Below are positions 16,432 to 23,866 of a stretch of DNA of 46,711 nucleotides, in pieces. Under the pieces are notes generated by a model. That model saw only the letters and a list, made by a program, of their open reading frames with translations. It did not search any database and was not told where the DNA came from. A program made the position numbers and the translations under genes. Location of the stretch: assembly GCA_026397605.1 (NCBI GenBank), contig JAPLUM010000752.1:1-46711 (forward strand), written 5' to 3'. The number at the start of each line of letters is the position of its first letter. Positions within the stretch are counted from its first letter, which is position 1. Source of the DNA: Verrucomicrobiota bacterium (GTDB lineage: Bacteria; Verrucomicrobiota; Verrucomicrobiia; Verrucomicrobiales; Verrucomicrobiaceae).

Positions 16432-17688
16432 ATGCGCGACTACTTTATCCGACGCTTCCTGCTCATCCTTCCGACGCTGATCGGGGCGACTCTGGTTGTG
16501 GTTGGCCTAACTCGGGTCGTGCCTGGAGGGCCTATGGAACGTGCGATGCAGGCGGCCCTGGCGAGCGAGCACGGCGGTGGATCCAAGAACGCTGGCTCGT
16601 CTCTGACCGATGAACAGAAGGAGGAGATGGCTGCCTACTACAACTTCGACAAGTCTTACCTCCCAGCCTATGCCATTTGGCTTGGCATCTGGCCGCGTGA
16701 GGAAACGAAGCAGCTGATCAAGTTTGACGAGGGCAAGAACGAGATGCCCATCACGCTGAAGATCCTGCTCCCACGGGCCGAATGGACGGCGACCAATGCT
16801 TACAAGGTTTCCCAGGTCACGGTGAAGCGTGATGGCACGCTTAATGGTCCAGATGCGGATGTGATCGCCCACTTCAAAACACGCGCTGAGCCTGAAAAGC
16901 AGCGCGTGGCCGTGTTTCATCCTGCCTTCAGCGGCCTGCTTCAGGGTAACTTTGGTCTCTCCACAAGCTACAACCTGAGCGTGCTGGACATGATGCTCTC
17001 CAAGATGCCGGTCTCGATCTTCTACGGCCTACTCACGTTCTTCATCGCCTACATGGTCTGCATACCGCTCGGCATCCTGAAGGCGATTAAGCATCGGACG
17101 GTGATTGATAATGTTACTTCGATCCTGATCTTCATCGGCTATGCCATTCCGGGTTTTTTGCTTGGCAGTCTGGTCGTGGTGTATCTTGCCGCGCGTATGG
17201 GCTGGTTTCCCACTGAGGGATTCACCAGCGAGAACTTTGCCTCGCTCACTTTCGGCGGTAAGTTGTGGGACATCATCCATCATGCTATCCTGCCACTGGC
17301 CTGCTACATGGTCGGAAGCTTTGCCTTTCTCACGATGCTGATGAAGAACAATCTGATGGACAACCTGGCCGCTGATTATGTGCGCACGGCCATCGCCAAA
17401 GGTTCAAGTTACAAGCACGCAGTGCTGGGACATGCGCTGCGCAATTCGCTGATCCCCATCGCTACGACGCTCGGCAGCATCACGACCGTATTTGTCGCGG
17501 GCTCACTGCTGATTGAGCGCATCTTTAACATAGACGGCTTCGGCCTGCTCACGATCCAGAGCATCAGCGACCGCGACTATCCGCTGGTCATGGGCATCCT
17601 CACGCTGGATGTGATCCTCATCATGCTGGGAAACATTCTGTCTGACTACCTCGTCGCGCTCACTGATCCGCGTGTGCGCTTCAACTAA
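16432..17688 (+). CDS. Peptide ABC transporter permease (Yej/Opp/Dpp B-type)
   Basis: MRDYFIRRFLLILPTLIGATLVVVGLTRVVPGGP, VSIFYGLLTFFIAYMVCIPLGILKAIKHRT, DYVRTAIAKGSSYKHAVLGHALRNSLIPIAT, LIERIFNIDGFGLL. Confidence 0.93.
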   Translation: MRDYFIRRFLLILPTLIGATLVVVGLTRVVPGGPMERAMQAALASEHGGGSKNAGSSLTDEQKEEMAAYYNFDKSYLPAYAIWLGIWPREETKQLIKFDEGKNEMPITLKILLPRAEWTATNAYKVSQVTVKRDGTLNGPDADVIAHFKTRAEPEKQRVAVFHPAFSGLLQGNFGLSTSYNLSVLDMMLSKMPVSIFYGLLTFFIAYMVCIPLGILKAIKHRTVIDNVTSILIFIGYAIPGFLLGSLVVVYLAARMGWFPTEGFTSENFASLTFGGKLWDIIHHAILPLACYMVGSFAFLTMLMKNNLMDNLAADYVRTAIAKGSSYKHAVLGHALRNSLIPIATTLGSITTVFVAGSLLIERIFNIDGFGLLTIQSISDRDYPLVMGILTLDVILIMLGNILSDYLVALTDPRVRFN

Positions 17689-17691
17689 ACC

Positions 17692-19197
17692 ATGTCCCCT
17701 CGCACCACAGGCATAGCCCTCATCGCCTACTCGCTGCTCTCCCTGGCGCAGCGGCTGGCGAGCCTGCATGTGCCTGTGCTGAAGATACCTTTCCTCGCTG
17801 GAAATCCTGTGGGATTCATCCTTGCATCCCTGCTGCTCGCGTTCGGTCTGTGGTGGGTGATCAAAGGCCGCACTGAGTGGAACATCTCGCCTTTGACGTT
17901 AAAGAAGCTCCAGCGCTTTGCCCACATCCGACGCGGCTATGTTTCCTTCATCCTCATCCTCGGACTCGCCGGCATCGCATCGCTGGACACCCTGATTGTT
18001 GGCAAGCGCGCCTTGATGGTGAGCTACCAGGGGAAGTGGAGTTTTCCTTTTGTGAAGGGTGTCATGCCTGGCAAAACCTACAGTCTGGAAAGCGATGCCG
18101 AGGCTGACTATCGCGAGCTGAAAAAGCGTTTCGAAAAAGAGGACAAGGGCGACTGGGTGCTGATGCCGCTGGTGCCCTATGACTCGGCGCTCGACACGCC
18201 GGAGGTCATCGAGACACTCGACATTCAGGACGGCAAACTGCTGCGCAATGGCAGGCCCTACAGCGGCGCGGCCTACACAGTTTTTGCCTCAGATGCTGAG
18301 ATGAAGCGCCAGGAGTTCCAGTTCCGCAATGGCGTGAAGCACGGCGACTTCCGTGGCTGGAATGAAAAGGGTGAAACCATCGAGCAGGGTGCTTTCACCA
18401 AAGGAAGCCGCACGACCTACAGTGACTTCATTGATGGCAAAGCGGCAGCCTATGAATCCCAGGCTGGCGGTGTCTGGCAGCGCCTCGTCTATCCACCCGC
18501 GCCGCCTTCGTCCACCCAGAAGCACTACCTCGGCACGAACACCACAGGCGCGGATGTGCTGGCCATGCTATATGGCGGCCTGCAGCAGGCCTTGATCGCT
18601 GCGGTGCTGTTTGTCATCGTCGTGTTCGCGGTCGGTGTCCTCATCGGTGGCACGCTGGGCTACTTCGGCGGATGGGTGGATCTGACCGGACAGCGGCTCA
18701 TCGAGATCTGGCAGGTGCTGCCCTTTTTGTTCGTCGTGATGTTCATCAGCTCGCTGCTCAATCCCACGCTCAGCGTTCTGGTGATGATCCTTGCATTGTT
18801 CGGATGGATGAAGACCACGAGCTACCTGCGCACGGCCACCTACAGGGAAAAGGAACGCGATTATGTGGCTGCCGCGCGTCTGCAAGGCGCCAGCACTCCG
18901 CGTGTGATCTTCCATCATGTGCTGCCGAACGTCATCGCCATCCTGGTGACGCTGGCCCCCTTCGAGGTGGCGCTGGTCATCACGGATCTCGCCGCGCTGG
19001 ACTTCCTCGGCTACGGCCTGCCACCAGATGTGCCAAGCTGGGGCCGCCTGCTTCATGAAGGCGTGGATAACTTCAACTACCCCTGGATCGTCAGCAGCGC
19101 GTTTGCCGCCATGAGCCTGGTGCTGGTGCTCGTCACCTTTGTGGGCGAGGCCGTGCGCGAGGCCTTTGATCCGAAAAAATTCACCACCTACCAATGA
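17692..19197 (+). CDS. Peptide ABC transporter permease (YejE/OppC-type) with an extended extracytoplasmic insert
   Basis: LGTNTTGADVLAMLYGGLQQALIAAVLFVIVVFAVGVLIGGTLGYFGGWVD, DYVAAARLQGASTPRVIFHHVLPNVIAILVT, LGYGLPPDVPSWGRLL. Confidence 0.92.
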   Translation: MSPRTTGIALIAYSLLSLAQRLASLHVPVLKIPFLAGNPVGFILASLLLAFGLWWVIKGRTEWNISPLTLKKLQRFAHIRRGYVSFILILGLAGIASLDTLIVGKRALMVSYQGKWSFPFVKGVMPGKTYSLESDAEADYRELKKRFEKEDKGDWVLMPLVPYDSALDTPEVIETLDIQDGKLLRNGRPYSGAAYTVFASDAEMKRQEFQFRNGVKHGDFRGWNEKGETIEQGAFTKGSRTTYSDFIDGKAAAYESQAGGVWQRLVYPPAPPSSTQKHYLGTNTTGADVLAMLYGGLQQALIAAVLFVIVVFAVGVLIGGTLGYFGGWVDLTGQRLIEIWQVLPFLFVVMFISSLLNPTLSVLVMILALFGWMKTTSYLRTATYREKERDYVAAARLQGASTPRVIFHHVLPNVIAILVTLAPFEVALVITDLAALDFLGYGLPPDVPSWGRLLHEGVDNFNYPWIVSSAFAAMSLVLVLVTFVGEAVREAFDPKKFTTYQ

Positions 19198-21188
19198 TCG
19201 GCAAGCCACCAGTGAACAGTGAAGAACGACGTAGCACCAGCCGCGTCGCTCCATGGGCATGGCCACTCTGCGCCTTGCTCGTGTTGCTGGGCTCCTCCTG
19301 CTCAGACGATGCTGATGAACGCTTCCCGCCCTACGACAACACGGCGGAAGTCGAGGCCGAGTGGAAGGCGAACCCGCAGATCTACCAATTCAAGACCCTC
19401 GCCGACCTGCCGCCTAACCTACAGTGGGAAACAGGGGCTGATTATCCGGAGCTTGGCGATCCGGCGGCGAAGAAGGGCGGCACCTTCAACTACGACATGC
19501 CGAACTTCCCGCCCACGCTGCGCTTCATAGGGCCGGATGGCGGAAACACCTTCCGCAGCGAGCATTGGGACAACATTGAGATGTCGCTCGTGCAACTCCA
19601 TCGCAACGTGGGCAAGTGGATGCCTTGCATCGCGGAAGCGTGGGCGGTGGGGGATGACCGCAAGACGGTCTATTTTAAATTGGATCCGTCTGCGACTTAT
19701 TCCGATGGCGTGAAGGTCGAGGTCGAGGACTTCTTCATGACGCTGTACATCGCGCGTTCGAAGCACACGAAGGATCCCTACTCTTACGCTTATTCGAGGG
19801 AACACTACGCCTCGATCTCCAAATACGATGACCACACCATGTCCATCACACTGGTGGAAACGGCTCCCGATCCTGTGCTCCTCACCGGCGCTCCCCAGGA
19901 CGGTCTTGGCGGCCCCATGCCGCGCCATTTTTTCCGTGAGTTTGGCGATGACTTTCCCGCCCGCTACCAGTGGCGCAAGATGCCGACGACAGGTGCCTAC
20001 GACATTCTGCCGGAGGACATCAAGTATGGCCGCAGCATCACGCTGACCCGGGTGAAGAACTGGTGGGCCAAGGACAAAAAGTACTACCGCTATCGCTACA
20101 ATGCGGATCGCTTCGTTCACAAAATGGTGCCCAATCTGGACACAGCGTTTGAGTTGTTCCGCCAGGGCAAGATCGACCACTTCAGCTCAGCTGCGCAGAT
20201 GCTGCCGCCGAACTATTGGTATGATAAGGGTGACATCCCCGAGCTGCTGAATGGCTATATCGAGCGCTACACCTTTTATAACAGCTTCCCGCAGATCCCG
20301 CGCTGCCTCTACATCAACCAGAGCAAGCCCTTTCTCGACAACCTGGACGTCCGAACCGGCCTGCACTACGCCATGGACATCGAGAAAGTCATCGCCGTGG
20401 TGCTGCGTGGCGACCCGGTGCGGATGCAGAACAGCTGGTCAGGCTTTGGGCGCTTTATGAATCCTAATCTCCGGGCACTGCTCTATGACCCTGTGAAGGC
20501 CCAGGAGCATTTTGCAAAGGCGGGCTTCACCAAACGCAACTCCGCCGGCATCCTGGTGAATGCGGAGGGCAAGCCATTGTCCTTCACGCTCACCATCGGC
20601 ACTTATCCCGCCTACACCCAGGCGGCGCTGATCTGGAAGGAAGGCGCGCTTAAGGCCGGGCTGGACCTGAAGATTGAGTCCATTGACTTCACCCAGCTCT
20701 TTAAGAAGGCAGAGGAAAAGGAGCATGAGATCATTATGGCGGGGTTCGGGGCCACACCGCCATACCCGGAGATGTGGCAGTACTTCCACTCGATCAACGC
20801 CTATGAGATGAAGGACGGCAAAAAGGTAAAGAAGCCCAACACTTCTAATTTCACGATGACGGACAACCCGGAGCTAGACAAGCTGATTGACCAGCAGCGC
20901 AAAGCGCCCAACGATGACGAGATGCAGCGCCTGTGTTGGCAGATCCAGGAGATCACCCACAACAGTCGCTGCCAGATAACGACCTGGGAGGCACCGCTTT
21001 ACCGCTATTTTCACTGGCGCTGGCTGCGCTGGCCGAAGGATGGCAATCTGAAGCAGACACGCGAGGGCCTCGACTCTTTTGCATGGTGGATTGATGAGGG
21101 CATCAAAGCCGAGACCCTGGAGGCCATCCGCAATGGTAAGAGCTTCGGTGAAGTGTCACGTGTGTTTGATCAATACCGCCAGAAATGA
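19194..21188 (+). CDS. Extracellular solute-binding protein family 5 (YejA/OppA-like lipoprotein)
   Basis: Lipobox-like [70 protein letters not shown]; overlaps the upstream stop (ATGA). Confidence 0.92.
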
Positions 21189-22888
21189 TGAGCAACACTG
21201 CCCCCATCCTCCAAGTCAATCATCTGGTGACCGCATTTGACACCGACGCAGGCCGCATGACAGCTGTCGATGGTGTGTCCTTCGATGTGCCGCGTGGCAA
21301 GACGCTCGGCATCGTCGGTGAGTCGGGTTGTGGTAAGAGTGTGACCGCCTTCTCCATCACACGCCTGCTTCCGCAGCCGCATGGGAAGATTCTCGGCGGC
21401 AGCATCCTGTTTGAAGGCAAAGACCTCGTGACCCTGCCGCATGAGGAGATGCGCAAGCTGCGCGGCAATGACATCTCCATGATCTTCCAGGAGCCCATGA
21501 CGGCGCTCAATCCCGTGCAGACTGTCGGGAAACAACTCGCCGAAGCCATTCTACTTCATGAGCAGGCCAGCCCGGACCAAGTCCGCACTCGCTGCATCGA
21601 CATGATGAAAAAGGTGCGCATTCCCGCGCCCGAGCAACGCATCAACGAGTATCCTCACCAACTCAGCGGCGGCATGCGTCAGCGCGTGATGATCGCCATG
21701 GCGCTGATCAACACGCCGAAGCTCCTCATTGCCGATGAACCCACCACCGCACTTGATGTCACCGTGCAGGCGCAGATCCTGGAGTTGATCAAAGAGCTGC
21801 AAGTTGACCTCGGCATGAGTGTCATTCTCATCACTCATGATCTCGGTGTCATCGCTGAAGTCTGTGATGAAGTGGCCGTCATGTATGCTGGCCGCATCGT
21901 CGAGCGTGCCAGCGTTTTTGATCTTTTTAAAAATCCACGCCATGCCTACACCCAAGGTTTGCTGGAAAGCATTCCCCGTCTCGACAGTAAGCCGAAGACT
22001 CTATTGAAAGCCATTTCTGGCAATGTGCCCGGCATCGCTGACTTCAAGCCCGGCTGCCGTTTCGCCGAGCGCTCCGGTCGTGAGCATACAGAGGCTCACC
22101 TCACCACTCGTCCACCTTTCGTCGAGATCGCGCTGGGGCATTGGGTGGAAAACTGCCCCATCTGTGCTGGATTGAGCGTTGCCGTTTCTTTTTCCGCTAG
22201 TAATTTAAATCCTGAAACCCAGACCCGCTATGACCCCCCTAGCAACCGAGATGCTCAAGACACGTTTACGGATGCCCTCCGCTACCTTCGAGCAAATGAA
22301 AGCACAGGTCATTCGTCACAAAGCCGTGCGGAGCGCGAGACAGAACGCCAGCGGCAGCTCGGGCTCCTCTCCGAATGGTGCCGCGAACATGGGAAAATAG
22401 TTTCTGCGGAGACAATGGGTGAAGCCCTCGACCAAGGTGCTGAACACACCATTTATGGAGATCTCAAACGCAACCGCGCCATCAAAGTCACCTATCCTGG
22501 CCGTGCGGGCAATGACTTCAGCCGAGGGCGACTTCTCGCAGCTCATCCTACCGAGTACTTCGAGCGCTGGATCAATCACAATGAACTGTTCGGGGATGCG
22601 GCAATGTTCGAAGGTCTGATCGAAGCTGAAGACGGACACCAACTGGTGATTTCTCAGCCTTGGATCATGGGCGATGTTCCCGACCGTCAGCAAACTTGGG
22701 AGAAACTAGCCGAGATGGGCTTCGAGCCAGTTCCCAATGGACAAGATTTTTTCCGAGTGTCCGACTCACTTGCATTGCTCGATTGTCACGATGGTAATTT
22801 CATCCTCGCAGAAGATGGGCGGCTTTTGTCCATTGATGCGCATCCCATCTTTGCCGATGATTCTTTGAAACGCGCACTTTATCTCTAG
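21185..22888 (+). CDS. OppD-like ABC transporter ATPase with an in-frame C-terminal polyvalent-protein-type kinase-like domain
   Basis: Walker A GESGCGKS, signature [15 protein letters not shown], Walker [19 protein letters not shown], OppD/F C-term [12 protein letters not shown] at ~22135-22170. Then ~200 aa: [20 protein letters not shown]...[43 protein letters not shown]...[29 protein letters not shown]. Confidence 0.85.
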
Positions 22889-22891
22889 CTA

Positions 22892-23866
22892 ATGCCCCTC
22901 CTCACTGTCCAAAATCTCCAGCAACACTTTCCTGTCCGTGGGGGTTTGCTCAGGCGTTCTGTGGCTTCATGCAAGGCCGTAGATGGAGTGAGTTTTTCTT
23001 TGAATGCGGGGGAAACTCTCGGGCTAGTCGGTGAGTCAGGCTGTGGCAAGACGACGCTGGGAAAGGCCATTGTGAGATTGTTAAAGCCGACATCAGGGAA
23101 GATCGAGTTTGATGGTCAAGACATCACTACTTCTAGCATCGGTGCGTTGAGACCGATGCGGCGGCATGTGCAGATGATCTTCCAAGATCCGGCTGAGTCT
23201 CTCAATCCACGCCATACGGTGCGGGATATCTTGGAAGAGCCTTTCATCATTCAGAAAATGGGGGCCAAAGAGGAGCGCCAAAAGTGGGTGCTGGAGCTTT
23301 TGGATAAGGTAGGACTTCCTTCCAGCGCGATGGATCGCTTCCCTTTCGAGTTCAGTGGTGGTCAGCGTCAGCGTATCGGCATTGCGCGCGCCATTGCTTT
23401 GAAGCCAAAGCTCATCGTGTGTGATGAGCCCGTGTCAGCGCTGGATGTGTCGGTGCAAAGTCAGGTGCTGAATCTGTTGCTGGATCTCCAGCGTGAGATG
23501 GGACTGAGTTACCTTTTTATCGCCCATGGTTTAAGTGTGGTGAAGCACATGAGTGATCGGGTCGCGGTCATGTATCTGGGCAAGATTGTCGAGCTAGCGC
23601 CTGCGGAAGAGCTTTATCAAAACCCACGCCATGCTTACACGAAGGCGCTGTTGGATGCCATTCCGGTGCCTGATCCAGCAATGCGGCGTAAGCGCGAGTT
23701 GCTGCAGGGGGACGTGCCTTCGCCCATTAATCCGCCAGCAGGCTGTGCTTTTGGGCACCGTATGAAGCATGCTCAATGGCAGGCCAGTGTGGGCATGGAT
23801 TTGTCGCTCAAAGAAGTGTCGCCAGGACACTGGGTGCAGCCTTGTCCTTGCTGCACCCAGGTGTAG
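22892..23866 (+). CDS. OppF-like ABC transporter ATPase
   Basis: GESGCGKTTLGKAIVRLLKPTSG, IFQDPAESLNPRHTV, FSGGQRQRIGIARAIALKPKLIVCDEPVSALDVSVQ, C-term GHWVQPCPCC. Confidence 0.94.
   Translation: MPLLTVQNLQQHFPVRGGLLRRSVASCKAVDGVSFSLNAGETLGLVGESGCGKTTLGKAIVRLLKPTSGKIEFDGQDITTSSIGALRPMRRHVQMIFQDPAESLNPRHTVRDILEEPFIIQKMGAKEERQKWVLELLDKVGLPSSAMDRFPFEFSGGQRQRIGIARAIALKPKLIVCDEPVSALDVSVQSQVLNLLLDLQREMGLSYLFIAHGLSVVKHMSDRVAVMYLGKIVELAPAEELYQNPRHAYTKALLDAIPVPDPAMRRKRELLQGDVPSPINPPAGCAFGHRMKHAQWQASVGMDLSLKEVSPGHWVQPCPCCTQV
23830..23860 (+). terminator. Perfect 10-bp hairpin CTGGGTGCAG-N11-CTGCACCCAG inside the 3' end of the oppF-like gene
   Basis: Inverted repeat read directly; lies immediately before the stop of the last opp gene. 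Followed by GTGTAGATTTGAGTT with no long T-run, so a terminator role is only possible. Confidence 0.45.

Follow-up and report, generated by a model that had tools for sequence, protein, structure and literature searches.

The locus described here raises the question of why an ATPase subunit of a peptide transporter should continue in frame into a second domain, and of what else is encoded by the DNA where the two parts meet. The window, which is the whole 46,711-nucleotide stretch of Verrucomicrobiota DNA that was analyzed, contains a peptide ABC transporter operon on the forward strand (16432-23866) with the gene order B-C-A-D-F. The operon begins with an oppB-like permease (16432..17688), an oppC-like permease (17692..19197), and an oppA-like solute-binding protein (19194..21188). 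The best NCBIfam models for the two permeases were PRK15133 YejB (215 bits, below the cut-off of 445) and PRK15021 microcin C permease (223 bits, below the cut-off of 439), respectively, leaving the YejB/YejE (microcin C) models nearest with scores far under their cut-offs; the solute-binding protein matched NikA/OppA-type families, all below cut-off. The fourth gene (21185-22888) encodes 567 residues with no internal stop, in which OppD (residues 1-329, 21185..22171) is joined in frame to a tail (residues 330-567, 22172-22885) that starts at approximately 22172, just past the usual OppD terminus, CPICAG. The gene for oppF (22892..23866) follows directly. Pfam matched ABC_tran (E 1.3e-30) and oligo_HPY (E 2.8e-15) in the OppD portion and PF18762, Kinase-PolyVal, in the tail (E 6.9e-15; 55.8 bits versus a cut-off of 27), the latter domain spanning 22322..22888 as the C-terminal half of the fusion.

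The OppD-kinase fusion was found between oppD and oppF in nine Verrucomicrobiaceae genomes, counting that of the window, in a comparison with 68 genomes of the family, and the B-C-A-D-F order was the same in the fused relatives. Six of the eight further genomes carried complete ORFs without stops (G083, G109, G166, G004, G195, and G106), and in two (G157 and G174) the fusion was split by contig ends; the carriers include metagenome-assembled genomes named Prosthecobacter and Phragmitibacter. In the other relatives, OppD stops at approximately residue 330, typically with a TGA that overlaps the oppF ATG; a corresponding overlap between the kinase stop and the oppF ATG is seen at five fused loci. 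At the level of sequence, this comparison showed that the OppD stop was lost and that reading passes through a small-gene region into the kinase, which would therefore be made as a C-terminal domain of OppD. In G109, G166, G004, and G106, the stretch from the OppD end to the kinase core contains no kinase-frame ATG, GTG, or TTG, so that the kinase in these genomes would be produced only as an OppD fusion (or by frameshifting). The OppD portions of the complete fusions were 64-83% identical, and the tails of the relatives were 31-42% identical to that of the window. For the kinase cores of G083 and G157, dN was 0.19 and dS was saturated, which indicates that the core is under purifying selection. 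The joining of two genes through a sequencing or assembly error was also considered, as the carriers known by name are metagenome-assembled; given the same in-frame architecture in nine independent assemblies and the saturated synonymous divergence in the measured pair, we regard this explanation as extremely improbable. A missed indel or assembly artefact was rejected on the basis of the nine genomes with this architecture. As a separate observation, oppD of one relative (L127, in G094) lies in two frames, an apparent frameshift or assembly error.

PF18762 denotes the kinase of phage and mobile-element polyvalent proteins, a family defined by a Glu before strand 2, a conserved Gln that ends the N-lobe, and loss of the C-terminal subdomain (Iyer et al. 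2017, PMC5512222). The tail resembles this family in its sequence, its Glu and Gln, its Lys/Asp/Asn/Asp set, and its missing C-lobe. Tail residues E91 (preceding strand 2) and Q162 (at the N-lobe end) were fully conserved, and Lys434, Asp533, Asn538, and Asp551 of the fusion (K105, D204, N209, and D222 of the tail) were near-invariant in 59 kinases, with the catalytic residues invariant in all nine fused proteins. The AlphaFold2 model of the kinase (188 residues; pLDDT 92.2, pTM 0.85) terminates approximately 15 residues past the metal-binding Asp and lacks the kinase C-terminal subdomain. When this model was used for a fold search of the PDB, all 50 listed matches were protein kinases (IRAK4, PknB, RIPK2, and others), with probabilities of up to 1.0, E-values of 1e-3 or weaker, and TM-scores of 0.27-0.42 for partial matches to whole kinases; the low TM-scores and weak E-values are expected for a truncated, divergent kinase. 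The combined sequence and model evidence confirmed the tail as a Kinase-PolyVal domain, a predicted minimal protein kinase with its active-site residues intact. The original prediction had proposed that OppD reads in frame into a tail of the polyvalent-protein kinase family with the Lys, catalytic Asp, Asn, and metal-binding Asp present, had asked whether the same fusion occurs elsewhere, and had named AlphaFold and a fold search as a check. The fusion, the kinase family, the catalytic residues, and the kinase-type predicted fold all stood, but the role it suggested in transport or peptide modification gained no support, and an overprinted ORF in the +1 frame was overlooked.

This small ORF lies at 22230..22400 of the window, encodes 56 residues, ends with TAG, and is separated from the usual OppD end by a linker (22172..22229) through which the OppD/kinase frame stays open. 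Each of the nine fused loci has such an ORF, running from ATG to stop in the +1 frame across the linker and the N-terminal region of the kinase; it is 56 or 59 aa long, its sequence is conserved, and the kinase frame is open over it. Pairwise base differences among the fused loci at kinase-frame codon positions 1, 2, and 3 were 1094, 792, and 870, respectively, and the most variable of these, position 1, is the third codon position of the small ORF. The chance of the kinase frame remaining open given the small protein was P 0.02-0.21 per gene using one codon usage and P 0.17-0.71 per gene when a conservative codon usage was applied to the initial 60% of the small ORF. The G+C content at the third position of the small ORF was 0.71, a coding-type value. 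AlphaFold2 predicted a helical hairpin for the small protein (residues 3-14 and 20-40, block pLDDT 81-93) with a disordered tail that starts where sequence conservation stops. The small ORF had no Pfam match above the cut-off and no match in PADLOC or PHROGs, and a tblastn search against phages and plasmids yielded no match.

The same arrangement was observed well beyond the fused loci, in standalone kinases and in kinases inside very large polyvalent ORFs. A +1-frame ATG ORF was present in 85 of 96 Kinase-PolyVal domains, compared to 37.9 +/- 4.4 (maximum 47 in 200 draws) in a null for which codons were redrawn with the kinase protein kept; the 96 domains were counted without presupposing the ORF. 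As a control, +2-frame ORFs were found in 3 of the 96 versus 2.0 in the null, and in a later-fetched set the +1 and +2 ORFs occurred in 15 and 0 of 20 kinase loci, respectively. The +1 frame is open by chance in approximately 57% of cases, which alone is weak evidence, and the tests were for this reason directed at position, ATG, and conservation of the amino-acid sequence. The start of the small ORF is mostly approximately 70-80 codons upstream of the Glu-His core, and both its ATG and its stop are at a near-constant distance from the kinase core. Over 33 divergent kinases analyzed by codon redrawing, the small ORF was conserved beyond the kinase-frame expectation (z=11-13), with the signal located in the first 60% (z=13.1) rather than the last 40% (z=1.3), and the same test gave z=0.4 in the kinase core. 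In the reverse test, with the small ORF taken as given, the kinase frame also showed conservation (z=17), and in 53 of 55 genes it continued without a stop across the small ORF versus 20 expected with redrawn codons. Chance openness as an explanation of the +1 ORF was rejected from the ORF position and ATG counts together with the amino-acid conservation. At the level of sequence, these results showed constraint on each of the two overlapping reading frames. Base-difference phase was saturated and uninformative in the non-fused set. Evidence from ribosome-binding sites was likewise uninformative, with a Shine-Dalgarno-like 4-mer upstream of only 2 of 19 window genes; the gene starts of the window sit in a C/A-rich context.

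Two explanations of the overlap that dispense with a separate small protein were weighed against these data. The conserved region might instead be a DNA or RNA element, such as a recombination or regulatory site, that encodes no protein, and the movement of the module between loci and operons would suit such an element. We consider this very unlikely because it is the amino-acid sequence that is conserved, the third positions of the small ORF being the most variable in the fused loci, because the ATG and stop keep a near-constant spacing to the kinase core, and because the third-position G+C is of coding type. Alternatively, the small ORF might be the N-terminal part of the kinase, joined to it via programmed -1 frameshifting. 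The frame relation is invariant in nearly all listed pairs, small-ORF conservation is confined to the first 60% whereas kinase-frame conservation is strongest in the last 40%, the standalone kinases L032 and L072 lack any usual start codon in the kinase frame, and the window locus has G GGA AAA right before the small-ORF stop, all of which fit such a mechanism. Against it, the upstream kinase frame is open in 53 of 55 genes, which would be needless with frameshifting, an independent ATG lies a few bases 5' of the small-ORF ATG in many standalone kinases, and small ORFs occur without a kinase. Slippery heptamers of the type X XXY YYZ were found in only 4 of 55 genes, and programmed frameshifting was rejected as a general mechanism on this basis. 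The reading is unlikely as a whole, although the two frames may be joined in some genes, for example L032 and L072.

The oppD/oppF junction is an insertion hotspot. HicA/HicB-type pairs (HicA being PF07927) were present at this site in 11 relatives, as assigned by Pfam for representatives and by eye for the remainder, and two near-identical operons (L058 of G080 and L059 of G029) differ in that G080 has a HicAB pair of ~460 bp as a clean insertion at this site. Further relatives have nothing inserted there. In G052 (L040) and G213 (L110), a small-ORF homologue stands alone at the junction with no kinase, the G213 homologue having a different C-terminal half, and in G146 (L122) OppD still extends across the small ORF, with the kinase absent. 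The nine fused kinases form one clade (SH-aLRT 98), the fusion is scattered over the OppD tree like shuffled labels (8 changes versus a shuffled mean of 8.5), and the kinase and OppD trees disagree for G195 and G106. From this combination, the fused lineage probably arose once and was then exchanged between operons and lost many times, with gain and loss pooled in the change counts.

The original prediction suggested that the kinase could phosphorylate a transported peptide or antibiotic or regulate the transporter. In its fuller form, this explanation takes the OppD fusion as placement of the kinase at the cytoplasmic exit, where its role would be transporter regulation or the modification of imported peptides, and the small ORF as a regulatory subunit. 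It is consistent with the maintenance of an obligate in-frame fusion in nine divergent genomes, the intact catalytic residues, and the constraint on the kinase core between G083 and G157. Most family members, however, have the operon without the kinase, state changes on the OppD tree are about as frequent as in shuffles, and other Kinase-PolyVal kinases are standalone or lie within unrelated large proteins; we judge it unlikely. The suggested role was left without support, and a conflict- or addiction-type insert is indicated instead by the sporadic distribution of the module over the OppD tree, a kinase far more divergent than OppD, and the site shared with HicAB toxin-antitoxin inserts.

Additional findings bear on this conflict-type interpretation. 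The tight linkage of a small gene with a putative effector gene, as in type II toxin-antitoxin systems, was observed, the small ORF overlapping 85 of 96 kinases. The small ORF stands without an intact kinase at approximately 19 loci, among them those of G052, G213, and G146 at the oppD/oppF junction, the kinase being deleted, truncated, or frameshifted, and few kinases clearly lack the small ORF. Sampling in this comparison is asymmetric, as the kinase-less loci were located by small-ORF search; a 5' ORF could also outlast 3' deletions without having any function. Kinase-PolyVal genes occur in multiple copies per genome. Neither the kinase nor the small ORF matched the defence and toxin-antitoxin families of PADLOC. 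The kinase-less small ORFs, the hotspot shared with HicAB, the sporadic spread, and the several copies per genome suggest that the kinase and small ORF make up a module of the conflict or addiction kind, in which the small protein would be the partner or inhibitor. Our preferred explanation, to which we assign an even chance, is a two-component module of overprinted kinase and small protein at the oppD/oppF junction. The small protein would be translated from the internal ATG at 22230 inside the fused gene and may act on the kinase in a toxin-antitoxin manner, the kinase would phosphorylate protein targets, and the module would persist and spread between operons as a conflict or addiction element, helped in this by being entangled with a transporter gene that is of use to the host. 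A broader version, which we put forward tentatively, is that throughout the Verrucomicrobiota, Kinase-PolyVal genes represent toxin-antitoxin-like modules of overprinted type, with an inhibitor in the +1 frame over the kinase N-terminal region, and that one lineage in Verrucomicrobiaceae became bound to peptide-transporter operons through fusion of the kinase to OppD, so that loss of the module would harm a useful gene.

Whether bacteria have out-of-frame overlapping genes is a matter of debate, as evidence of selection is missing for most of them. The overprinted small ORF offers a testable conserved example, with dozens of divergent copies, a control frame, a control region, and a partner of predicted activity. 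If the small protein does control the kinase, this would be a natural effector and regulator sharing DNA, and a conflict-type module fixed onto a housekeeping transporter. The protein resembles OppD/DppD peptide transporter ATPases in its complete ATPase and oligo_HPY domain and its B-C-A-D-F operon, but differs in its 238-residue additional tail and internal out-of-frame gene. Like type II toxin-antitoxin systems such as HicAB, which occupies the same junction in relatives, the module pairs a small gene with a putative effector gene and is sporadic; unlike them, its effector has a kinase fold and its partner is overprinted in another frame rather than adjacent. Kinase-PolyVal is a known family, abundant in Verrucomicrobia, whereas its attachment to the C-terminus of a housekeeping OppD and the overprinted +1-frame ORF are apparently new: the family's description mentions neither transporters nor overlapping genes (PMC5512222), and no account of a Kinase-PolyVal/transporter-ATPase fusion or of the overprinted ORF was found in the open-access literature. 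One report describes artificially entangled genes, in which a toxin gene is encoded within another gene (PMC10359631); both cases involve two proteins, one of them predicted in the present case, in alternative frames of one DNA, the present case being natural, widespread in a phylum, and linked to a kinase.

Three more Kinase-PolyVal genes, each with an N-terminal +1-frame ORF, were noted in the window genome (L002, L003, and L194 on contigs C568, C709, and C772, respectively). The kinase subgroup L191-L194 has a conserved but unrelated-looking +1-frame ORF (MPSTPSKPLFS...LTTAQALKGYDYLKS). A strikingly conserved small-ORF subtype that ends in ...SSRRSITSEEFRQQV..HLGRPLSPGRKKTFVNGREVWVCC was seen at L167, L173, L176, L179, L183, L187, and L189, often beside truncated kinases.
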